Shown in pieces: positions 15,552-50,533 of a stretch of DNA of 64,000 bases. The DNA lies in assembly GCF_900086705.1 (NCBI RefSeq), contig NZ_LT575483.1, positions 621,166-685,165 of the forward strand. The letters are read 5' to 3'. The translations under genes were made by a program, and so were the position numbers. The notes beneath the pieces are model-generated. The model was not told where the DNA came from. It searched no databases and saw nothing but the letters and a program-made list of their open reading frames with translations. This DNA is from Massilibacillus massiliensis. GTDB lineage: Bacteria; Bacillota; Negativicutes; FLKF01. The first letter of the stretch is position 1; each line of letters starts with the position of its first letter.

Positions 15552-15635
15552 TGGTGCGGGTGAAGGGACTTGAACCCCCACGGTTACCCGCCAGATCCTA
15601 AGTCTGGTGCGTCTGCCAATTCCGCCACACCCGCA
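15552..15635 (-). tRNA. tRNA-Leu (anticodon UAG)
   Basis: 84 nt including the encoded CCA. Acceptor TGCGGGT pairs with ACCCGCA. The anticodon stem CCAGA/TCTGG encloses CTTAGGA, giving anticodon TAG. A long variable arm, as in class II tRNAs, and the TTCAAGT T-loop are present. Confidence 0.97.
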
Positions 15636-15750: not shown

Positions 15751-16497
15751 CTATTTACATATTTTTCGCATTGTGAAAATACACCCTCCAAACGCAAGTA
15801 CTATGTAAATAAATAAAATACATAACGAAGCCATCGATCCAGTCTGCCCACTGCCAATGGTACGCAGCAAAGCACTCGTATGCGTCAGCGGCAAGCTTTC
15901 AATAACAACTTTAAAGATGATTGGCAACTTATCCGGTGAAAAAAAAGTACCGCACAAAAAAGACATTGGCAATAAGATATAAGTATTTACGCTTCCCATA
16001 TCTTCATGTGAATCAATGAGCATTGCTGCAATAAATCCAAATGCCGAAAAAATCACACAATTTATAATTAATATACTGAAAAAAAAGAAATCCATATGAA
16101 AATGTGCGCCAAATGCATATGCCATAATCATAATAATGATAGAAGACAAAATACCACGCAATGTTCCAGCAGCGATTTTCCCAATAATAAAAGCCAATGG
16201 TTTAACCGGAGCCACAAGATATTCTTCAAGACTTTTATGATACATCCGCGCAGTATGTAAAGACGGTCCAACACTGTTGAAACTGATATTCATCGAATTC
16301 AAAGCAAGAATACCAGGCACTAAAAAATCTAAATAACTTCCTCCGATATAGGTTTCTGGAATACTCCTGCCTAACCCCCAGCCAAAAGCAACTAAATAAA
16401 GCATTGGAGCAATCATACGACTTAATAAAAATTTTATTAAACGCCGTTTCAATACAATCCAATCACGCCAAAACACCGTCATAATATCATAAAACAT
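15751..16497 (-). CDS. ABC-2 type transporter permease
   Basis: 248 residues with six hydrophobic segments. The ABC-2 signature region ...PLAFIIGKIAAGTLRGILSSIIIMIMAYAFG and FLCGTFFSPDKLPIIFKVVIESLPLTH is typical of drug, lipid or polysaccharide exporters (DrrB/NodJ type). Its ATG overlaps the stop of the ATPase gene in the sequence TGATG, so the two are translationally coupled and form one exporter. The transcript appears to begin far upstream with a cobalamin riboswitch (17671-17866), which is unusual for this family. Confidence 0.87.
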   Translation of the reverse strand: MFYDIMTVFWRDWIVLKRRLIKFLLSRMIAPMLYLVAFGWGLGRSIPETYIGGSYLDFLVPGILALNSMNISFNSVGPSLHTARMYHKSLEEYLVAPVKPLAFIIGKIAAGTLRGILSSIIIMIMAYAFGAHFHMDFFFFSILIINCVIFSAFGFIAAMLIDSHEDMGSVNTYILLPMSFLCGTFFSPDKLPIIFKVVIESLPLTHTSALLRTIGSGQTGSMASLCILFIYIVLAFGGCIFTMRKICK

Positions 16498-17336
16498 CAG
16501 CTGTTCACCTTTCTTCCAGTCAACTCAACAAAAACATCTTCTAAATTTGAGTGTCGTATCGTCGCTGTAGTATGGATTGAACCGGCGAAAGCAGCCGCTT
16601 TTTCTCGTGTAGGGAAAAAATTATATTCCCTACCTAATTTTCCTTCCCACTCCACCACATAACTGCCTGCCTTTTTGCATAAATTCTCTGGTTTATCCAA
16701 TGCGATGAGACTTCCTTTTTCCATAATTGCTACACGCTGACAAAGCTGCTCTGCTTCCTCAATATAATGCGTAGTCAAAAGTACTGTAATATCGTCATTA
16801 TGCATACGACGAATTAAATCCCATAATCGGCGTCTAACTTGCGGATCAAGTGCAACTGTTGGTTCGTCCAACAATAAAATTTTTGGTTTATGCATTAATG
16901 CCCGCGCGATTAATAAACGCCGTTTCATTCCCCCCGACAGCTCCTGTACACGATCATGAATTCTCTCACTTAATTCCACATACGCTAATAAAGAAAGTAT
17001 CCTTTCCTTACGTTCACGCTCTGGCATGTGATGTAAACGTCCATGTAGTTCAAGGTTCTCTCCCACCGTTAAATCCTGATCTAAATTGACATGCTGCGGA
17101 ACAATACCAATCATGGCTTTTATTTTTTCTTCTTCCTGTTGAACATGTAACCCATGAATTATAATATCGCCAGAAGATGGTTTCGTTAACATCGACAACA
17201 TACGAATTGTCGTCGTTTTACCTGCTCCATTAGGTCCTAGCAAACCAAATATCTCACCTTCTTTTATTTCTAAATTTAATTGATTTACTGCAATTCGTTG
17301 ACCAAAAACTTTTACTAACTCTTTCATCTTTATCAC
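16497..17336 (-). CDS. ABC-2 type transporter ATP-binding protein
   Basis: 279 residues if it starts at the GTG at 17336 (GGAG 8 nt upstream); the ATG at 17327 is an alternative. Walker A GPNGAGKTT (about residue 34), signature LSGGMKRR, Walker B LLLDEPTVALD and the switch histidine in LLTTHYIEEAEQ are all present. The C-terminal 60 residues resemble the DrrA-type extension. It powers the coupled permease. The long leader between the promoter at about 17.9 kb and this gene contains a cobalamin riboswitch, a terminator, an uncharacterised RNA element and a second terminator. Confidence 0.9.
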   Translation of the reverse strand: MIKMKELVKVFGQRIAVNQLNLEIKEGEIFGLLGPNGAGKTTTIRMLSMLTKPSSGDIIIHGLHVQQEEEKIKAMIGIVPQHVNLDQDLTVGENLELHGRLHHMPERERKERILSLLAYVELSERIHDRVQELSGGMKRRLLIARALMHKPKILLLDEPTVALDPQVRRRLWDLIRRMHNDDITVLLTTHYIEEAEQLCQRVAIMEKGSLIALDKPENLCKKAGSYVVEWEGKLGREYNFFPTREKAAAFAGSIHTTATIRHSNLEDVFVELTGRKVNS

Positions 17337-17458
17337 TTTAGTCACTCCAAAAATAAAATTCACTTGTTTTTATTAATTTCCAAGTTGTAATATCCATATT
17401 TTCATAACAATAACGTGAATTTTCAAAAACATGATCCACCTATTCAACTTAAACAGAC

Positions 17459-17490
17459 AAAAAAAACATGTTTCTAAATTTAGAAACATG
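17459..17490 (-). terminator. Second leader terminator upstream of the ABC exporter
   Basis: Perfect 12-bp palindromic stem CATGTTTCTAAA/TTTAGAAACATG (17467-17490) followed on minus by eight T. It lies directly after the uncharacterised leader element, so that element probably controls it. Confidence 0.85.
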
Positions 17491-17560
17491 GCTACGTAAA
17501 TACGTAACAAGGCAAATATATGAGCAATGTATCCTTGCCAAAGCTAAAAAGCAAAGAAAC
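17491..17560 (-). ncRNA. Uncharacterised structured leader element, copy A
   Basis: On the minus strand: stem 1 CTTTGC/GCAAGG (17551-17556 with 17533-17538) closing a 12-nt loop TTTTTAGCTTTG; then ACATTGCTCATA; then TTGCCTTGTTACGT; stem 2 TACGT-ATTT-ACGTA (17493-17506). The same loop and single-stranded words recur at 44075-44150 with compensatory changes in both stems. In each place the element sits between a riboswitch terminator and another terminator. I cannot match it to a known riboswitch class. It may be an aptamer or protein-binding attenuator. Confidence 0.6.
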
Positions 17561-17575
17561 TTTTATTAAAACAAC

Positions 17576-17601
17576 AAAAACCTCTTTCTGCAAAAGAGGT
17601 T
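17576..17601 (-). terminator. Expression-platform terminator of cobalamin riboswitch 1
   Basis: Stem AACCTCTT / AAGAGGTT with loop TTGCAGA (minus), followed by TTTTT. The GCAGAAA word recurs in the terminators of the other three cobalamin riboswitches. Confidence 0.75.
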
Positions 17602-17670
17602 CTATGGTTTATAAAATCAATCCAAAAAATCTCAAAATTTATACAGTCCACATAATAGATTGCTTTATGA

Positions 17671-17866
17671 ATCGCCTCCCCATCGCTCGCAGGTCAATCG
17701 GTGATTGTTAATTAGGCAGTTCTCCTGGCTTTAGTTCATCGCAGCTCCAAACCTTCCCAAAATAAGCATTTCAGTGGTATATATAGAAGCAACTCACTAT
17801 TACAGTGGCGGGACCGCGTTGGCATTACACCAAACTTCCCTATTAAGTCTTTAGACACCTAACTCG
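17671..17866 (-). ncRNA. Cobalamin riboswitch 1 (upstream of ABC-2 exporter)
   Basis: Minus-strand core features: AGGGAAG and GGTG..AATGCCAACGCGGTCCCGCCACTGT, the B12 box AGCCAGGAGAACTGCC, and a 3' hairpin with loop ACCTGCGAG preceding CGATGGGGA. All four copies in the window share this layout. Adenosyl- or other cobalamin binding normally stops expression of the downstream gene. The first gene downstream is the ABC-2 exporter at 16497-17336. Confidence 0.9.
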
Positions 17867-17885
17867 TTTTATTCGATTTTGGTTC

Positions 17886-17914
17886 ATTCTATCACTACAA
17901 CACTTTCCTGTCAA
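17886..17914 (-). promoter_or_regulatory. Promoter of riboswitch 1 / ABC exporter
   Basis: -35 TTGACA (17909-17914), 17-bp spacer, -10 TAGAAT (17886-17891), 20 bp before the riboswitch. Confidence 0.8.
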
Positions 17915-25087: not shown

Positions 25088-25987
25088 TTAGTTCTTACCT
25101 GCAATTGCATCTTTTACATGTTGCACATAAATCTTTTGTATTGCTTTATTTTCACCTAAACCATGAACATAAGTATCTACTTGATATCCTTCTGCTTTCA
25201 ATAAATTTTTCCAAGAATCATCTTCATCGCCAGCCATATCATTATTTGCATGATCACCGGCAACAAGCATCAATGGCATCAACAATACTGATTTTACAGA
25301 TTTTTTCGCTGCTAAACGAGCAACTACATCTTCAAAATTTGGATGATCAGTTTCCTCTACAACACCAATCGTTACAGGCATTTTCGCTGCATCAAATTCA
25401 TTTTGCAATGCTTGATAAGCTGGATTGTGTTGATGTGGAGATCCATGCCCCATAAATACGATCTCTTGTCCTTTTTGAACCTTTGGAAGTTGTGTTTTCA
25501 ACGCTTTCACAGCAATTGCGAAATCATCTACTTTCCCATCTGTTCCATCATTCATAAGAACAGGTCTGCCAATTTTAATACTTTGGAAAGAATTCTCATA
25601 AGTCTTCACTGGAGCAATGACTTTTTTATCGTATTCTTCTCCTGGCGTAAGATGTGTTGACTGTATTACAACCTCAGTATATCCTTCCGCTTTCAGCTTG
25701 TCCAATGCTTGTTCCAAAGTATCTGCATAAATGCCGCGGTCGGCTAATCTTTTCATTACAATTCTTGATGTGAATGCACGACGCACTTCATAGTCTGGAA
25801 AAGCCGCCTTAATTTCGTTTTCAACGCTTTCGATACACGCTTTTCTCGCGTCATCAAAAGTTGTTCCAAAACTTACAACTACAATTGCTTTTTTAGCGGC
25901 ACTTGCACTTGCCACCGAGTGATGTGTTGCCAATACTGCTGAAACTGTAAAAGCAACGACTAACAAAGTACATAAAAACTGCTTCAT
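25088..25987 (-). CDS. cbiK: Exported sirohydrochlorin cobaltochelatase CbiK
   Basis: 299 residues. A signal peptide (residues 1-30, cut near ASASA-AKK) precedes the CbiK fold. Catalytic residues are present: H181 in FMGHGSP, E211 in GVVEETD, and H246 in LLVAGDHANNDMAG. It inserts Co2+ into sirohydrochlorin, or binds metal/haem-like ligands, but outside the inner membrane, as for the periplasmic CbiK of Desulfovibrio. A second CbiK without signal peptide is at 46881-47684. It is controlled by cobalamin riboswitch 2, whose terminator is 41 bp upstream. Confidence 0.9.
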   Translation of the reverse strand: MKQFLCTLLVVAFTVSAVLATHHSVASASAAKKAIVVVSFGTTFDDARKACIESVENEIKAAFPDYEVRRAFTSRIVMKRLADRGIYADTLEQALDKLKAEGYTEVVIQSTHLTPGEEYDKKVIAPVKTYENSFQSIKIGRPVLMNDGTDGKVDDFAIAVKALKTQLPKVQKGQEIVFMGHGSPHQHNPAYQALQNEFDAAKMPVTIGVVEETDHPNFEDVVARLAAKKSVKSVLLMPLMLVAGDHANNDMAGDEDDSWKNLLKAEGYQVDTYVHGLGENKAIQKIYVQHVKDAIAGKN

Positions 25988-26094: not shown

Positions 26095-26290
26095 CCCCTT
26101 CCCATCGCTCGCAGGTCCAACGGTGATTTCTTGACAGGCAGTTCTCCTGGCTCTAGATCATCGCTACTCCAAACCTTCCCAAAAGTAAAACTTTCAGTGG
26201 TATATTCTTGGATTCGCTCCCTATTACAGTGGCGGGACCGCATCGGCATTCAACCGATTTCCCTATTAAGCCCTTACCGGGCACCCATCT
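26095..26290 (-). ncRNA. Cobalamin riboswitch 2 (upstream of cbiK)
   Basis: Carries the GGTCCCGCCACTGTAATAG core, GCCAGGAGAACTGCC B12 box, and the CACCGTTGGACCTGCGAG hairpin before CGATGGGAAGGGG. Expected to switch cbiK off when cobalamin is plentiful. Confidence 0.93.
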
Positions 26291-26343
26291 CAATGCTATT
26301 ATTTTTTCATATTATGAAATAAAGTATATTTATTACAAAGGTT

Positions 26344-35700: not shown

Positions 35701-36840
35701 TTACTTTTGGGCGTTATCAAAGGCAGCTATAAGTTTTTGCATCGCAATTGTAGCGGACATTTTGCCCTCCGACACGGCAGTTTCAATCGCGTTTCTATTT
35801 TTCTTTACCTTTTCGTTTTGATAAAACATCGTATGCAAGTGTTCCTCAACCATAGAATATACCCAATCCAGCGTTTGCGCTTTTCTTCTGGATTCAAATA
35901 TCCCACTTTTCCCAACCACATCTTTAAATCGCTGCATCACTTGCCAAATCTCCGCAATGCCTAAACCAGTTAAGGCAGAACAAGTATGTGCCTTCGTCTG
36001 CCAGCCATCCGTCGCCGGTCTTAAATAACGAAGAATACGTTCATAATCCACTTTAACCATTTCAGCTTTTTGCTTATTATCACCATCTGCTTTATTAATT
36101 AATATCGCATCGGCAATTTCCATAACGCCTTTTTTCATCCCTTGCAGTTCATCACCTGCACCAGTCAACACAACCAATAGAAAAAAGTCTACCATAGATC
36201 TCACTGTGATTTCACTCTGACCAACGCCGACTGTTTCTACTAAAATCACATCATAGCCCGCTGCTTCACAAAGCAGTAAAGTTTCCCTGCTTTTTCGCGT
36301 AACCCCCCCTAGAGTTCCACTAGAAGGAGACGGTCTAATAAAAGCATTTTTCTCCCGAGAAAGTTTTTCCATTCTAGTCTTATCGCCAAGGATGCTTCCC
36401 TTTGTAATACTACTGCTCGGATCTACCGCCAGTACAGCAACTTTATGACCATGTTGACACAAAGTACAGCCTAATGCTTCTATGAAGGTACTCTTTCCGG
36501 CACCAGGAACACCGGTAATCCCAATACGAATTGACTTCCCCGTATGAGGCAAAACGCTTTGTAAGACATCCTGTGCCAGATTCATATGCATAAGGGAGTT
36601 ACTCTCAATGAGCGTAATCGCCCTTGATAAAACCATTCGATCACTTTTCAATATACCTTCTACATATTCATCAACGGTAAGTTTATTGCGCTTTACTACA
36701 GTTGCAGCCTGCCTAACCTTTGTTGTAGCGAAGCGTGCCATACCATCATGACCACCGTCTACGCCTTGCATGACACGGCATGCAAACTCTGCACCCGCAT
36801 CTTCAGGCGTCCAATCAGGTTTATAATTTTGATCACTCAT
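35701..36840 (-). CDS. meaB: Methylmalonyl-CoA mutase-associated GTPase MeaB
   Basis: 379 residues. P-loop [12 protein letters not shown] (107-118), switch [20 protein letters not shown], EtVGVGQSE, and INKADGD for guanine recognition. It loads and protects the adenosylcobalamin cofactor of methylmalonyl-CoA mutase. It overlaps the end of mutB by 8 bp. An N-terminal extension of about 60 residues is usual for the family. Confidence 0.95.
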
Positions 36841-39022
36841 TTTCCCAGTTGAGACGCACTTTCAATTCTTCTAAAACTTTTCCCGCTGCAATGGGAATGA
36901 TTGTGCCCGGCCCGAAAATCGCTGAAGCACCATGCTCTCGTAAAAAATCGTAGTCTTGCGCTGGTATTACACCACCAATTACAACCATAATATCTTCCCG
37001 TCCACGCTTTGCCAACTCTTCCACCAATTGCGGCAACAAAGTTTTATGTCCGGCTGCAAGTGAACTCATACCAACTACATGTACATCATTATCTACTGCA
37101 TCTTGCGCCGTTTCTTCTGGCGTTTGAAAAAGCGGTCCAATATCAACATCAAATCCTAAATCGGCAAACGCGGTAGCAATTACTTTTGCACCACGATCGT
37201 GTCCGTCTTGCCCCATTTTAGCAATCATAATTCTCGGACGTCGTCCTTCGTGCTCTTCAAATTCGTCCGTCATTTGACGTACACGACGAATTTCATCTTC
37301 ATTTGCGAATTCACTGCTATATACCCCTGAAATAGAACGAATTACCGCTTTATGACGACCGGAAACTTTTTCTACTGCATCCGATATTTCCCCAAGACTT
37401 GCTCTCGCTCTCGCCGCTTTTACTGCTAAGTCGAGTAAATTCCCATTACCCGTCTCAACAGAATTTGTAATCGCCTCCAAACAAGATAAGACTTGATCTT
37501 GATCACGATTGGCACGAAGTTTTTCTAAACGTCTAATTTGCGCCTGACGAACAGCAACATTATCGACATCTAAAATATCTAGTGGATCTTCTTTATCCAA
37601 ACGAAATTTATTCACACCAACAATCATTTCATTTCCTGAATCAATGTGCGCCTGTCGACGTGCAGCAGCTTCTTCAATTCTCATCTTAGGCAAACCTGTT
37701 TCAATTGCTTTTGCCATACCGCCCAGTTTCTCAACTTCCTGGATATGCGCCCAAGCACTTTTTACCAATTCTTGTGTGAGAGCTTCCACATAATAAGACC
37801 CGCCCCAAGGATCTACGACTTTGCAGATTTTTGTTTCGTCCTGTAAGTACAGCTGTGTATTACGGGCAATGCGGGCCGAAAAATCGGTTGGCAAAGCAAT
37901 CGCTTCATCTAAAGCATTCGTATGCAGAGATTGCGTATGCCCAAGTGCAGCTGCCATAGCCTCAATACAAGTTCTAACAATATTATTAAATGGATCTTGT
38001 TCGGTAAGACTCCATCCAGAAGTCTGTGAATGCGTGCGTAATGCCATTGATTTTTTATTCTTTGGATTAAATTGCTTAATAATTTTTGCCCACAATAAAC
38101 GGCCTGCTCGCATCTTCGCAACTTCCATAAAATAATTTTTTCCCATTGCCCAGAAGAAAGACAGCCTTGGTGCGAATGCATCGACATTGAGTCCCGCATT
38201 CACCCCTGTTCTGATATACTCAAGGCCATCGGCGAGTGTATAGCCAAGTTCTATATCCGCAGTTGCTCCGGCTTCCTGCATGTGGTATCCAGAAATACTG
38301 ATACTATTAAATTTAGGCATAAATTGCGATGTGTAAGCAAAAATGTCGCCAATAATCCGCATTGAAGCAGCCGGTGGATAAATATACGTATTGCGCACCA
38401 TGAACTCTTTTAAAATATCATTTTGAATCGTACCTGCAAGAACTTCTTGTTTTACCCCTTGTTCTTCAGCCGCTACGATATAAAAAGCTAAAACAGGTAA
38501 AACAGCGCCGTTCATTGTCATCGATACCGACATCTTATCCAGTGGAATTCCTGAAAATAAAATTTCCATATCCAAAATAGAATCAACTGCCACCCCTGCT
38601 TTACCAACATCCCCAACAACCCGTGGATGATCGGAATCATAGCCGCGATGTGTCGCAAGGTCAAAGGCTATCGAAAGTCCTTTTTGCCCTGCTGCTAAAT
38701 TGCGGCGATAAAATGCATTACTTTCCTCTGCTGTGGAGAATCCGGCGTATTGACGTACTGTCCAAGGACGAGTTACATACATACTTGGATATGGTCCACG
38801 TAAAAATGGCGGAACCCCAGCCATATAATGCAAATGCTGCATACCTTCTAAATCTTGTTTCGTATATAATGGCTTTACATCGATTTGCTCCATGGTTCTT
38901 TGGTAAAGCTCTGTAAAGCTCTTACCTGTCTCAGACTCTAAGCGCGCTTTCCATTCTTCAAAACTCTCAGCTTGCGCTTTTGTTTTAAATTCAAGCTTTG
39001 TGAAATCCGGTTTGAAGTACAT
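36833..39022 (-). CDS. mutB: Methylmalonyl-CoA mutase large (catalytic) subunit
   Basis: 729 residues from the ATG at 39022 (GAGGAGG upstream inside mutA; ATG and mutA stop overlap as TAATG). An N-terminal TIM barrel binds CoA ([33 protein letters not shown]). The C-terminal B12 domain has the base-off cobalamin ligand H608 in GQDGHDRG. It interconverts (R)-methylmalonyl-CoA and succinyl-CoA, a central step of propionate formation. It sits under cobalamin riboswitch 3. Confidence 0.97.
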
Positions 39023-41190
39023 TATTTTATACCTCCTCTTTGCTGCAGCCAAGTCAAAATATCCAGGCAATTTGCTCTTACATGAATAAATTCTTCTATA
39101 CCAGCTTCACGATAAGCTTCCTCATGCTCTGGCGCAGGTGCACCAGCCAGCATCATAATCATTTCAGGTTTTTTTAGTTTTATTTGCCTTGCAAGCGCTG
39201 GCACAATTTCGGGATACGTAATATCGGTAGAACAAATAATTGCAACATATGCCCCCGACTTTATTGCAGCCTCAGCAGCTTCTTCAACCGTTTCAAATCC
39301 ATCATTCTTTAATACTTCAAATCCACCGACCTCGAAAAACCCTGTACTGAAATCAGCTCTTGGTTTATGCTGCGGGATTGGTCCCATATTGGCCAAAAAT
39401 ATTTTTAACTTTTCTCCTTTTTCCGTTTCATATTGTTTGGCTTTATGACGAAGTGATTCAAATTGTTCAGTAAAACGATGTTTTTCAATGATTGTATCGA
39501 TTTTTTCTATTTTACCTTCTTGTCTTAGCGCTTCTGTAACCTCACCTAACGTCGCACCAGCGGCAAAGGAGGAAACAATTTCATCCAGTACCGTTCCATA
39601 CTGATTGTTGAATCCTTTTTTTATCGCAGACAATTTTTCATCACGATAAATCGTATCAACATCTGCGACAAAATCTTGCACTTGTTTCTCTCGCAGTTTC
39701 TGAAGCTCTGGCTCATCCAATGGATGCTTTTCCAATTCTTCTTCCAGCATATTGGCATACATATTAACGCCAACAGCTCTGTCTGCTCGTCTCGCTAAGT
39801 TTTTAAATCGCTGCTTTAATACATCGGCAACTGCATTTTGCACAATTCCTTTTCTTAAGGCAGAAACCATACCGCCTTCTTCTTCTACGCTTTGCAAGAC
39901 TTTCCATGCCTTTTGCGCGATTTGCTGCGTTAATGTTTCTATATACCATGATCCACCCGCAGGATCTATCGGCTGCCTTAAATTACATTCGTTCTGTAAA
40001 ATCACTTGCGTATTCCGAGCAATTCGACGAGAAAATTCATCCCCAAAACGAATGACTTCATCAAACTCACCCACTTGCAAGCTGTCTACACCACCAACAA
40101 CACCAGAAAAAGCCTCCGTTGTAGTACGCAGCATATTCACATAAGGATCGTAAATAGACTTGTTGAATTTACCTGTTCGTGCATGAATCACCATTTTCTG
40201 AGCTTCTTTATCCCCACCAAAATTTTCTATAACCTGCGACCATAACATCCTCGCCGCTCTAAATTTTGCAATCTCCATAAAAAAATTAGAGCCAATAGAA
40301 AAGCTGAACTGCATATGTTTCGCAATCGTCTGAATGTCAATACTCCTCAATTGCATAGCACGGATATATTCAATCGCCGTAGAAAGCACATAACCAAGTT
40401 CTTGCACGGCACTTGCTCCACCATCATTGTAGATCTCACCTTGCACTAAGATATTTCTCAACTTTGGCATATTTTCTTCAGTCCAAACAATGGTATGCGC
40501 CATTTCATTATATAAATCATGTACGGAAGTAGGTAACTGACCGTCTTGTGCTAAAGTACCGATTGGGTCAGCTCCGACAACCCCATGAATTTTTTCAATC
40601 GCATCAGAGTTTGCCCTGCAAGTTGCACTCATCATGCCGATTAACATTGTACTAGAAGCACCAGCATGCATATAGAGTTCATATTTTCCCAAATCAACAT
40701 CCTGAAAAATATGATACATATCTTGTATTGTACTTAAAGATACGCCGCCTTTTTGGATATCATCAAAATCTTGCTCTACATTTTTCCCTTGTTTCGTCTT
40801 CTCATCAAGCGCAATATTAATAGAGGTGGCCCCTTTTTCTAGTTGGTGCCGAATCGATTCATTCAGTTTTTCTGGCAGCACTTCATTATTTGCTTGCGCA
40901 ATCAACCACGATTTATGAATGTAGCCTCCCGCCCGGATACCGCGCATATAATTTTCAGCTCCAGGTAAATTAGATAATGCATTTGGATCCGGAGCCATTT
41001 CCATCGTATAAATAGGTTCAAGCGTAATTCCTTCGTAGGTTTTTGTAAACAATTTCTTTTCAAAACTAGCACCTTTTAAGCTGGTGATTGTTTCTTGTTT
41101 CCATTCTTCATAAGTAGGCACATTGAATTCCTCAAAGGTCACTTGCAGCGGCTCTGCTTGTTTCATTTCAGCTTCTTCAGTTTGTTTCAT
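39022..41190 (-). CDS. mutA: Methylmalonyl-CoA mutase small subunit
   Basis: 722 residues. Homologous to MutB over its length but lacks the DxHxxG cobalamin motif (here [13 protein letters not shown]), as expected of the non-catalytic subunit. Conserved stretches include [44 protein letters not shown]. It forms the heterodimer with MutB. First gene of the operon. GGAT-type SD 9 nt before the ATG; a second ATG at 41166 is possible. Confidence 0.94.
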
Positions 41191-41370: not shown

Positions 41371-41565
41371 CCCCTTCCCATCGCTCGCAGGTCTAACGGT
41401 GATTGTTAAACAGGCAGTTCTCCTGGCTCTAGTTCATCGCTCCTCCAAACCTTCTCAAAACAATCGTTTCAATGGTATATTCTTGGATTTGCTCCCTATT
41501 ACAGTGGCGGGACCGCGTTGGCTTTTAACCAAACTTCCCTATTAAGTCCATAAGGACACCTATTT
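41371..41565 (-). ncRNA. Cobalamin riboswitch 3 (upstream of mutA-mutB-meaB)
   Basis: Has the GGTCCCGCCACTGTAATAGGG core, GCCAGGAGAACTGCC B12 box, and CACCGTTAGACCTGCGAG hairpin before CGATGGGAAGGGG. Controlling a B12-dependent enzyme is unusual; most such riboswitches repress synthesis, transport or B12-independent isoenzymes. Confidence 0.93.
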
Positions 41566-41617
41566 CCAACAGTATTAAATTTTATAGTTAAACATTATTA
41601 TTTCATAATTCAAGATT

Positions 41618-41790: not shown

Positions 41791-43767
41791 TTAATATTTA
41801 TATTGATAAGTTAACATGTAATTGATCGGAGTTGTGTAGTAATAAGAGCTGGTATGGCTTACATTATCCTGACGATCCAATATATTGTTTACACTGAGTG
41901 TTACCTCTTGCTGCTCATTTGCCGCATAACGCAAATTAAAATTGGTCAACAGATATGGTTTGGTTTCAAATGAATGAGCATCACTTGGAGACATAACTCT
42001 TTCTGACAAGTAGCTGGCATTTAAATTAGCAGCCCATTTATCTTTGTGATATCCTACACCACCATTAAGCTGTAATTTACCGAACGTTCTGTCCCAATAT
42101 TCTTTTGTTCCAACTTTACTGGATTTTGACCTTGATTTTGGATTTCCGTAAGTGAGCCCATACTGATAAGACCAGCCATTTTCTTCTTCAATTTCACAAT
42201 TGATCTCAATTCCGGTATTTTTCAAATCTTCGTTTATCGCATAAAAAACTGTATCACCAGCTGACTTTCCTTTACTATATGTAATGTTATCTTTTATATG
42301 ATACTCAAATAATGCCACTTTCCATTTATGTGCATCGCTATTTTTCTTCCAACCGATTTCATAATGCGTTCCTTTTTGTGGTCTTAATTGATCGTCACCT
42401 ATAACATTATAAGAACCGGCAGCATACATTTGTTTAAATGTCGGCATTTTAAAAGATTGACCAATACTAGCATACACACTTTCATCTGGTTTTAGTTTAT
42501 GGAGCCATTGCCCCTGCCCGCTAAAATTATCGTAATTTTTATCTTCGCCATCTTCGCCTCGCGGTGCCGCTGTCGTCCAAGTTTCTCTCGCACTTAAAAT
42601 CAAGGTATCTTTATCGTTCAGCATGTTCTCCCATTGTGTATAAACAGAATAGTTATTTCGTTGGTATTTATCTGATGTGGACAAATCTTCGCGGAAAGAT
42701 TCGTTTTGATATGTCGTGCCTAAAAGAATCTTTCCTTGCTTTAGCTCCCAAGATTTTTGTACATCGTACCCATACGTACGATTTTTTTCCTCTTTATCGT
42801 AGGATTCCGGCGTAGCTTTTTTCTTGCCAGAGCTGGCATAATAATCGATCCCTGTTGAATGCAGATTATTTTCATTATAATAAATATTACCACTGACATC
42901 TGCGTCATTTTTGAAATTAATCTGTACAAAATCTTTTACCATCTTATGCTTTCGATCATATTGCGCATTTCCTGCGGCATCATAACCAGCGCCGAATTGA
43001 TATTGAAATCTTTCTATAGACGCATTGTGATTTATATGAAGGTCTACCTGATCATTAAATTTATAGTTTAAGAAAACATTATTTTTCTCCGATCCCTTGA
43101 AAGAATTATTTTTTTCTTTCATCTCTGAAACAGAACTGGATATCTTATCAACATTACCCCATTTTTCATAAGTGTAACCTAATCCTAAATTACCTTCTTG
43201 TACAGTAAATGCGTTCGTTTGCTGCCCATAGCTCCCGAACCCTGTTTTCACTGTATTTTGCAATTCTTTTTTTGTAATAATGTTGATAACACCTCCAGTT
43301 GCTTCGCTGCCATATAAAATTGAACCGCCGCCACGGACAAATTCAATACGTGCAACATTTTCAACCGGGATATCTTCTAAATTATATAAACCTCGCAAAT
43401 TTAACGGTGTTCCATTTACCAGTACCAATGTTCCACCATCAACGCCACGAATATGTACCTTTGCTGTCATATTGCCTAGCGATGCACCACCGGGTCCCAT
43501 TGATTGATACGTAATCCCAGTTGCAAATTGTAAAGCTTGCTGTACATTACTTGCACCTGTATTTCTGAGATCTTTTTCCGAAAGGATTTCTGTTGTTGCC
43601 GCTATATCTACATCACGTTTTTCATATTTTTGTGCTGTTACTATAACTTCATCAAAGCCTTCTTCTTCAATCTTTTTTTCATCTGCATACACGATTTCTG
43701 AAGCCATCATAGTGGATACAGTTAAGGCCATCATATTTGCTAGTATTTTTTTTCTGTTTGCTCTCAT
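41791..43767 (-). CDS. TonB-dependent outer-membrane receptor under cobalamin riboswitch 4
   Basis: 658 residues, signal peptide to about residue 28 (MASEIVYA-D). TonB-box-like FDEVIVTAQ, plug domain with VRGGGSILYGSEATGGVINIIT, barrel ending ...YMLTYQYKY with a terminal aromatic. A riboswitch-controlled receptor is most simply a corrinoid (BtuB-type) receptor. Distinct from the receptor at 32546-34504. Its 5' leader of about 700 nt is unusually structured. Confidence 0.9.
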   Translation of the reverse strand: MRANRKKILANMMALTVSTMMASEIVYADEKKIEEEGFDEVIVTAQKYEKRDVDIAATTEILSEKDLRNTGASNVQQALQFATGITYQSMGPGGASLGNMTAKVHIRGVDGGTLVLVNGTPLNLRGLYNLEDIPVENVARIEFVRGGGSILYGSEATGGVINIITKKELQNTVKTGFGSYGQQTNAFTVQEGNLGLGYTYEKWGNVDKISSSVSEMKEKNNSFKGSEKNNVFLNYKFNDQVDLHINHNASIERFQYQFGAGYDAAGNAQYDRKHKMVKDFVQINFKNDADVSGNIYYNENNLHSTGIDYYASSGKKKATPESYDKEEKNRTYGYDVQKSWELKQGKILLGTTYQNESFREDLSTSDKYQRNNYSVYTQWENMLNDKDTLILSARETWTTAAPRGEDGEDKNYDNFSGQGQWLHKLKPDESVYASIGQSFKMPTFKQMYAAGSYNVIGDDQLRPQKGTHYEIGWKKNSDAHKWKVALFEYHIKDNITYSKGKSAGDTVFYAINEDLKNTGIEINCEIEEENGWSYQYGLTYGNPKSRSKSSKVGTKEYWDRTFGKLQLNGGVGYHKDKWAANLNASYLSERVMSPSDAHSFETKPYLLTNFNLRYAANEQQEVTLSVNNILDRQDNVSHTSSYYYTTPINYMLTYQYKY

Positions 43768-43825
43768 CTATTCCTCTTCTCCTATCATATAAAATTCTTC
43801 TTTCAGCACGCACACAAAACATAAT

Positions 43826-43917
43826 GCATGTTAGGCTAAATAAAATCTCTATCAGTTCTTCTTAAAAGGCAAAGAAGCAAATAACAGAAGATTTATTTAG
43901 TGCCTGTCCTAACATGC
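43826..43917 (-). other. Long imperfect inverted repeat in the receptor 5' leader
   Basis: Outer arms GCATGTTAGG / CCTAACATGC (43826-43835, 43908-43917), then second-tier complementary segments (about CTAAATAAAATCT with AGATTTATTTAG) and an inner CTTCTT/AAGAAG. About 90 nt in all, ending 59 bp before the start codon. Unknown role. Confidence 0.5.
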
Positions 43918-43927
43918 AAAATGAAAT

Positions 43928-43951
43928 ATAAAATCTTTTAAAAGATTTTAT
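43928..43951. other. 24-bp perfect palindrome in the receptor leader
   Basis: ATAAAATCTTTT followed by its reverse complement. It could be an RNA hairpin or a protein-binding site. Confidence 0.35.
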
Positions 43952-43971
43952 TCAACTTTTTACTTAAATGA

Positions 43972-44010
43972 ATAGCCTTGGACCTGAGGGGCAACTCAGC
44001 CCAAGGCTAT
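43972..44010 (-). other. Two-tier hairpin in the receptor leader
   Basis: Outer stem ATAGCCTTGG/CCAAGGCTAT (10 bp) and inner stem CTGAG/CTCAG around a 6-nt loop. No T-run follows on minus, so it is not a standard terminator. An 8-bp hairpin (TAACAGTT/AACTGTTA) lies next to it at 44019-44039. Confidence 0.5.
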
Positions 44011-44043
44011 ATTTATCATAACAGTTCATACAACTGTTACTTT

Positions 44044-44072
44044 AAAAAGAATGTTCCTATAAATATAGGAAC
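44044..44072 (-). terminator. Second leader terminator upstream of the TonB receptor
   Basis: 9-bp stem GTTCCTATA / TATAGGAAC followed by ATTCTTTTT on minus, directly after leader element copy B, matching the arrangement at 17459-17560. Confidence 0.75.
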
Positions 44073-44074
44073 AA

Positions 44075-44150
44075 CGTTACGAAAAACGTAACAAGGCAAT
44101 TAAAATTTATGAGCAATGTTTCCCCGCAAAAGCTAAAAAGCAGGGAAAAA
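44075..44150 (-). ncRNA. Uncharacterised structured leader element, copy B
   Basis: On minus: stem 1 TTTCCCTGC/GCGGGGAAA (44140-44148 with 44119-44127) closing the same 12-nt loop type (TTTTTAGCTTTT); ACATTGCTCATA; TTGCCTTGTTACGT; stem 2 GTTACG-TTTTT-CGTAAC (44076-44092). Compared with copy A (17491-17560), loop and linker words are conserved while stem pairs change on both sides, the mark of a selected RNA fold. It is followed by its own terminator. Confidence 0.6.
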
Positions 44151-44163
44151 CTTTCCGACAAAT

Positions 44164-44195
44164 AAAAAAACTCTTTCTGCGCACGCAAAAAGAGG
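44164..44195 (-). terminator. Expression-platform terminator of cobalamin riboswitch 4
   Basis: Stem CTCTTT / AAAGAG enclosing TTGCGTGCGCAG, followed on minus by seven T. Confidence 0.75.
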
Positions 44196-44270: not shown

Positions 44271-44468
44271 TCCCCTTCCCCATCGCTCGCAGGTCAAACG
44301 GTGACTGTTAATTAGGCAGTTCTCCTGGCTCTAGTTCATCGCTTCTCCAAACCTTCTCAAAACAATCGTTCCAATGGCATATCTTGGAGTCGCTCCCTAT
44401 TACAGTGGCGGGACCGCGTTGGCTTCTAAACCAAACTTCCCTATTAAGTCCGTAAGGACACCTAACTC
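44271..44468 (-). ncRNA. Cobalamin riboswitch 4 (upstream of TonB receptor)
   Basis: Has the GCGGTCCCGCCACTGTAATAGGG core, GCCAGGAGAACTGCC B12 box, and the CACCGTTTGACCTGCGAG hairpin before CGATGGGGAAGGGG. Nearly the same as riboswitch 3 in its 5' half. Confidence 0.93.
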
Positions 44469-44513
44469 TTCCTATTCAATTTAAAGATGAAGTTCATCAC
44501 TTTCATCGGATTT

Positions 44514-44542
44514 ATCATATCATTACTATTATAAATTGTCAA
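44514..44542 (-). promoter_or_regulatory. Promoter of riboswitch 4 / TonB receptor
   Basis: -35 TTGACA (44537-44542), 17-bp spacer, -10 TATGAT (44514-44519). Confidence 0.8.
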
Positions 44543-50124: not shown

Positions 50125-50200
50125 TGGTGATCCACCCGCGACTCGAACGCGGGACACCCTGATTAAAAGTCAGGTGCTCTACCGACTGAGCTAGTGGATC
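50125..50200 (-). tRNA. tRNA-Lys (anticodon UUU)
   Basis: 76 nt with encoded CCA. Acceptor GATCCAC/GTGGATC. Anticodon loop CTTTTAA between CTGA/TCAG stems gives TTT. Confidence 0.97.
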
Positions 50201-50207
50201 ATATACT

Positions 50208-50283
50208 TGGCTGGGGCGGCTGGACTCGAACCAACGCATGCGGGAGTCAAAGTCCCGTGCCTTACCGACTTGGCTACGCCCCA
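50208..50283 (-). tRNA. tRNA-Gln (anticodon UUG)
   Basis: 76 nt with encoded CCA. Acceptor TGGGGCG/CGCCCCA. Loop CTTTGAC between CGGGA/TCCCG gives anticodon TTG. Confidence 0.96.
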
Positions 50284-50295
50284 ATATAAAATTCA

Positions 50296-50373
50296 TGGGG
50301 TGACTGGAGGGAATCGAACCCTCGAAGTACCGGAGCCACAATCCGGCGTGTTAACCACTTCACCACAGCCACC
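50296..50373 (-). tRNA. tRNA-His (anticodon GUG)
   Basis: Acceptor GTGGCTG/CAGTCAC with encoded G-1 opposite C73, as in bacterial tRNA-His. Loop TTGTGGC between CCGGA/TCCGG gives GTG. CCA is encoded. Confidence 0.96.
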
Positions 50374-50456
50374 ATAAAAAACAAAATAAAAAATATAAGT
50401 ACCTGTCCTCAATTCATCGATTTAAATTCAAGACAAAGTTTCTTATAAAAAGTAAA

Positions 50457-50533
50457 TGGTGACCCTGGCAGGAGTCGAACCTGCGACCTTTTGATTCGTA
50501 GTCAAACACTCTATCCAGCTGAGCTACAGAGTC
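50457..50533 (-). tRNA. tRNA-Arg (anticodon ACG)
   Basis: 77 nt with encoded CCA. Acceptor GACTCTG/CAGGGTC. Loop CTACGAA between TTTGA/TCAAA gives ACG (read as ICG after A34 deamination). First tRNA of the four-gene operon. Confidence 0.96.

Follow-up and report, generated by a model that had tools for sequence, protein, structure and literature searches.

Riboswitches are known mostly for controlling, in cis, the gene that follows them. In a 64,000-nucleotide stretch of the Massilibacillus massiliensis genome (the window), two cobalamin riboswitches are each followed by a further RNA element, raising the question of what this additional module does. A first, sequence-only reading had placed it in two leaders, as an uncharacterised fold in tandem with the riboswitch. 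Both copies were recovered at those places, each 3′ of an RF00174 aptamer and between two terminator-like hairpins (Table 1). The interval first marked for copy A, 17491-17560, spans exactly hairpin 1 to hairpin 2, and the full module adds terminator 2. Terminator-like sites numbered four per copy region, against 0.2 and 0.6 expected. ACATTGCTCATA and TTGCCTTGTTACGT are identical in copies A and B, and both core motifs occur together only at these two copies in the whole 4.0 Mb genome. From the comparisons described below, we consider it probable that the element and terminator 2 constitute a base-pairing small RNA made under the cobalamin riboswitch.

Table 1. Features of the two element copies and their surroundings in the window.
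Feature	Position	Strand	Basis or remark
Whole element, copy A, including terminator 2	17459-17569	minus	
Sigma-70-like promoter, 5′ of riboswitch A	17886-17914	minus	TTGACA-17-TAGAAT; consensus match only
Cobalamin riboswitch aptamer A	17698-17877	minus	RF00174, 103 bits
Terminator 1, copy A	17577-17603	minus	presumed B12-controlled terminator
Element core, copy A	17514-17569	minus	
Hairpin 1, copy A	17529-17560	minus	covarying stem, variable loop
Conserved unpaired linker (seed), copy A	17509-17531	minus	TACATTGCTCATATATTTGCCTT region; predicted pairing with mutase start region
Hairpin 2, copy A	17491-17508	minus	
Terminator 2 of copy A and U tract	17459-17490 (terminator-like hairpin 17467-17490)	minus	3′ end of putative small RNA
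ABC transporter ATPase and ABC-2 permease, downstream of copy A	16497-17363; 15751-16497	minus	Pfam
Whole element, copy B, including terminator 2	44043-44159	minus	
Sigma-70-like promoter, 5′ of riboswitch B	44514-44542	minus	TTGACA-17-TATGAT; consensus match only
Cobalamin riboswitch aptamer B	44298-44480	minus	RF00174, 95.6 bits
Terminator 1, copy B	44171-44194	minus	
Element core, copy B	44103-44159	minus	
Hairpin 1, copy B	44119-44148	minus	
Linker (seed), copy B	44093-44118	minus	CATTGCTCATAAATTTTAATTGCCTTG region; antisense to Shine-Dalgarno and start codon of mutase G000:C6:557955
Hairpin 2, copy B	about 44076-44092	minus	
Terminator 2 of copy B and U-rich tail	44043-44073 (terminator-like hairpin 44052-44073)	minus	
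TonB-dependent receptor, B12-receptor-like, downstream of copy B	41791-43767	minus	TIGR01779, below its cut-off
Cobalamin riboswitch without element, 5′ of mutase subunit genes (39022-41190 and 36833-39070)	41396-41578	minus	
Cobalamin riboswitch without element, 5′ of cbiK (25088-25987)	26120-26303	minus	

The unit runs in the order riboswitch, terminator 1, hairpin 1, conserved unpaired linker (AUUGCUCAUAnAUUU...), hairpin 2 and terminator 2. In 50 aligned copies from many genera, a conserved flank, GKCGRAARGUUUU, lies ahead of hairpin 1. The sequence and loop of this hairpin are variable and its stem covaries, all seven modelled pairs having changed on both sides. The covariation score of stem 1 was 0.527 versus 0.307 in shuffles, and none of 500 shuffles reached it. 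Stems 1 and 2 still pair in both window copies despite their sequence changes, confirming the compensatory change and selected fold that had been proposed. The recurring 12-nt loop fared less well: it is common to A and B because these copies are closely related, but varies freely elsewhere. What hardly varies is the unpaired linker AUUGCUCAUAnAUUU, whose usual form is CAUUGCUCAUACAUUU and which is extended by CAUUCAGUUCUAU in many Selenomonadaceae; hairpin 2 and an intrinsic terminator come after it in nearly every copy. A conserved unpaired seed and a Rho-independent terminator are thus both present, and this hairpin-linker-hairpin-terminator layout is small-RNA anatomy. The genome encodes Hfq, a putative binder of the RNA that would help it act. 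An antisense open reading frame beginning ATGAGCAAT was ruled out, its frame being unconserved.

BLAST with copy B identified relatives in other families, each directly 3′ of a cobalamin riboswitch, and a covariance model built from seven copies had hits in 111 of the 380 genomes of the class Negativicutes. Of 40 loci fetched, 39 have an RF00174 aptamer 5′ of the element and on its strand; the tandem is fixed and kept in homologous leaders. RF00174 is the immediate upstream partner in nearly all loci, whereas the element itself has no similarity to it. A search of both copies against Rfam 15 gave no match at the gathering score, in agreement with the initial view of an uncharacterised class, and loose-threshold matches over both copies were at chance level only. 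In a scan of 84,980 species, convincing members among the matches listed fell only in records labelled Selenomonadales, Selenomonadaceae, Veillonellaceae or their genera; within that list real members scored at least 35.8 bits and all others at most 29.9, and we rejected these pattern matches outside Negativicutes as chance. No convincing element was present in viral contigs (best 23 bits, chance level). A literature search covering few subscription papers turned up no earlier account of this kind of RNA in Negativicutes. Two or three modules can stand behind one riboswitch, and most copies outside one genus, g74, sit in the leader of a B12-related sense gene.

TATGAGCAAT occurs 17 times in the M. 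massiliensis genome versus 5 for a reversed-pattern control; the target search in this genome covered these exact core sites, not all genes. Besides the elements themselves, the best exact-core duplex was with the start of a methylmalonyl-CoA mutase gene (G000:C6:557955, minus strand, GGAGGCAACTAAAATTATGAGCAATG), identified by Pfam and NCBIfam. In energy predictions, which ignore target accessibility, linker B gives -34.0 kcal/mol and linker A -28.5. The predicted duplex covers the Shine-Dalgarno and the AUG start codon and explains why TTGCCTTG, too, is common to copies A and B. A scan of the 50 window genes had given nothing convincing, since the predicted target lies outside the window.

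The same start recurs in other species. In 11 of 11 element genomes read, the mutase begins ATGAGCA, as ATGAGCAAT or ATGAGCACG, whereas most genomes without the element have a different mutase start. ATGAGCAAT also starts the mutase in three genomes where no element was detected (G031, G017 and G092), so in those genomes the protein start is older than the RNA or has outlasted it. Several families show a pairing in two parts, in which the linker's 5′ half matches the start codon and its 3′ half matches sequence 5′ of the Shine-Dalgarno. The sites in G016 (GUACAAUGAAGAAAUAAA) and G012 (CACAAUGAAAAAA) differ by a U-A to C-G compensation, and the site of G080, GAAGAAAAG, fits its deviant linker. 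Among 5,040 permutations of linkers over targets, 22 equalled or beat the cognate pairs (p=0.004; the linker of G076 was taken from a sister species). Against 400 shuffles per target, z lay between -6.8 and -2.5 in six of seven genomes, beyond or level with nearly all shuffles; the duplex in the seventh, G001, was weak (z -1.8, 17 of 400 shuffles as good). With one fixed pattern and coordinates, we then looked at 14 further genomes. In six of them (G281, G283, G294, G297, G299 and G182), which are not fully independent because they come from three genera, CTGAATGAA stands 17-32 nt 5′ of the mutase start and on its strand; the exact 9-mer was absent upstream in the other eight. The complementarity and its co-variation, linker and mutase target changing together, can be read directly from these sequences; they suggest that the linker pairs with this mRNA.

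A second set of predicted targets came from genus g74. In one genome scanned in full (G218; 2.05 Mb read, nearly all of a 99% complete genome), the linker was scored against 1,901 start regions. Rank 1 was cbiK, with 17 contiguous base pairs at position -47 (-24.7 kcal/mol), rank 2 was cbiL (-22.9 kcal/mol), and a methylmalonyl-CoA mutase subunit beginning TGTATGAGCAATC took rank 15. When 43 shuffled linkers were scored, cbiK entered the top 20 once and the mutase never; cbiL did so seven times and is for this reason the weaker claim. The cbiK leader of this genome contains no riboswitch. It reads CCTCC-GC-AATGAAATGTATGAGCA-...-GGAGG-ATG, placing an anti-Shine-Dalgarno beside the target site, and the RNA would open the resulting leader hairpin. 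Although its distance to the Shine-Dalgarno varies widely, the site has been retained across the genus, in 28 of 30 cbiK leaders; one of the two exceptions is cut by a contig end.

Published reporter assays indicate how such an RNA might be controlled. Negativicutes cobalamin riboswitches placed in B. subtilis, including that of Veillonella parvula mutA, repress reporters on corrinoids, and nearly all functional ones tested carry intrinsic terminators (PMC9600662). The expected logic is hence that terminator 1 is read through at low B12 and the small RNA is made. With B12 bound, transcription would halt at terminator 1, ahead of the element; at low B12 it would continue, yielding an RNA in which the unpaired seed linker lies between hairpin 1 and hairpin 2, ahead of the terminator. 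On the mutase mRNA, one half of the linker would occupy AUG AGC AAU and the other would pair with, or just 5′ of, the Shine-Dalgarno, blocking translation and sparing B12. In the genus without this form of the mutase, the linker would instead bind the cbiK 5′ UTR beside the anti-Shine-Dalgarno and free the ribosome site, probably activating cbiK and with it B12 synthesis.

The principal alternative is a cis attenuator, in which the element together with terminator 2 serves the downstream gene as another regulated terminator and the linker pairs with the leader between aptamer and terminator 1. It accounts for the copies outside g74, most of which precede a B12-related gene, for the constant presence of terminator 2 and for modules in tandem, and the linker does have a complementary stretch in several leaders (for example 13 bp in four g11 loci; ATAGAACTGRATG in g83/g84). 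However, such complementarity is missing in g74, g46 and others, and we ruled out general cis pairing with the leader, which is real in some genera and absent in others. Pairing of the linker with the aptamer tail GAGCGAUG was discarded as well: riboswitches lacking the element carry the tail too, and there is no co-variation. Stand-alone cassettes also speak against attenuation. At 14 of 15 g74 loci, riboswitch, terminator 1, element and terminator 2 are followed by no sense gene directly behind; the neighbour, where sequence covers one, lies on the opposite strand (convergent), typically 48-190 nt off, and differs between species (at locus L103 the sequence stops short of the next gene). Such cassettes hold nothing to attenuate, and in them the element can act only as RNA. 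We therefore regard a purely cis mechanism as unlikely. Terminator 2 may nonetheless act in cis on the gene that follows, because most non-g74 copies lie in sense-gene leaders and terminator-separated tandems are odd for a plain small RNA.

The sequence-only reading had favoured a second riboswitch or protein-binding attenuator responding to another ligand. It was right about a selected RNA in tandem with the riboswitch, and a conserved unpaired sequence adjoining a conserved hairpin, in tandem copies that resemble tandem attenuators, would suit such a device. Yet no known aptamer class in Rfam matches, and most conserved residues fall within a single unpaired stretch, which changes together with its mRNA targets, rather than in a folded pocket. 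Nor is the idea that the leader takes two inputs supported: in g74 the element ends the transcript with no gene behind it, and the linker is antisense to the starts of B12-related mRNAs and co-varies with them. The element thus reads as the riboswitch's output and not as a further sensor, and a second ligand now seems very improbable.

The small-RNA reading has precedents in logic. RyhB-type small RNAs, controlled by Fur, are made at cofactor scarcity and pair near the start codons of cofactor-using enzymes; the proposed cofactor sparing resembles theirs in logic, but the sensor here would be a riboswitch on the same transcript. SreA and SreB, SAM-riboswitch fragments of Listeria, act in trans by base pairing; there the regulator is the terminated aptamer RNA, whereas here it is a module beyond the terminator. 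OmrA/OmrB, small RNAs that act on btuB in E. coli, share a B12 circuit with a cobalamin riboswitch (PMC11162775), but are under EnvZ-OmpR and not made by the riboswitch transcript. Closest in arrangement is EutX/Rli55 of Enterococcus and Listeria, a cobalamin-riboswitch-controlled non-coding RNA that B12 shortens, removing its active 3′ module (PMC5821096). It shares with our 39 of 40 loci a same-strand upstream riboswitch and terminator, and with the 14 of 15 g74 loci an existence without a downstream sense gene. Its module sequesters the ANTAR protein EutV (PMC5821096), while the module here is complementary to mRNAs. A protein-sequestering RNA of this kind, for which the like layout of B12 riboswitch, terminator and binding module argues (PMC5821096), can be given hardly any weight, since inspection of the element copies revealed no paired ANTAR hairpins with conserved hexaloops, loops vary in length and sequence, and linker conservation tracks mRNA complementarity. 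With an antisense seed and no ANTAR hairpins, the element appears to belong to a riboswitch-controlled RNA like EutX/Rli55 but outside that family.

Taken together, a widespread B12 riboswitch seems to reach distant genes through a base-pairing RNA whose production it drives. A broader proposal, which we put forward tentatively and hold at somewhat below even chances, is a family of B12-sparing riboregulators across several Negativicutes families. One riboswitch transcript would encode genes for B12 uptake, synthesis or an alternative mutase, and would release an RNA turning one mutase off and riboswitch-less cbiK/cbiL on, a trans regulon. In G016 and G012 the same leader precedes a mutAB-type mutase, where an RNA-based isozyme swap would follow. 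Such a family would be a riboswitch-made counterpart of the iron-sparing small RNAs, and its predicted reach includes the mutase central to propionate formation in rumen and gut Selenomonadaceae. The precise seed and target sequences given here make this directly testable.

Several further observations concern the leaders and the window. In L067-L070, L089, L091, L093, L094 and L100 the leader holds a stretch complementary to the linker, placed between aptamer and terminator 1, with ATAGAACTGRATG also in L070; these stretches are possibly a built-in sponge, which may act at high B12, or the 3′ arm of an extra terminator. Nine loci (L071-L076, L080, L086 and L102) carry at least two tandem modules per riboswitch, each with its own terminator and some with decayed copies between. 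In L089 and L090 the cassette lies ~145 nt upstream of a seryl-tRNA synthetase-like gene (read by eye), unexpected for a B12 riboswitch. A scan of genome contigs for BtuB-like proteins found nothing. The stretch that separates terminator 2 of copy B from the receptor gene contains, within 43823-44010, a GC-rich hairpin (CCTTGGGCTGAG/CTCAGGTCCAAGG, about 43975-44010) and, at about 43825-43917, a long inverted repeat (CATGTTAGG/CCTAACATG); G001 (L004) has a similar hairpin 3′ of the element. All four window riboswitches share the tail GACCTGCGAGCGATGGG (17680-17700, 44280-44300, 26100-26120 and 41376-41396), which is probably the expression platform's P13/L13 kissing-loop hairpin. The genome holds two methylmalonyl-CoA mutase gene sets, one behind a cobalamin riboswitch (36833-41190) and one that is the predicted small-RNA target (G000:C6:557955), which may differ in B12 control. 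The window also contains a four-tRNA gene cluster (50128-50533) and a single tRNA (15555-15634), both on the minus strand.
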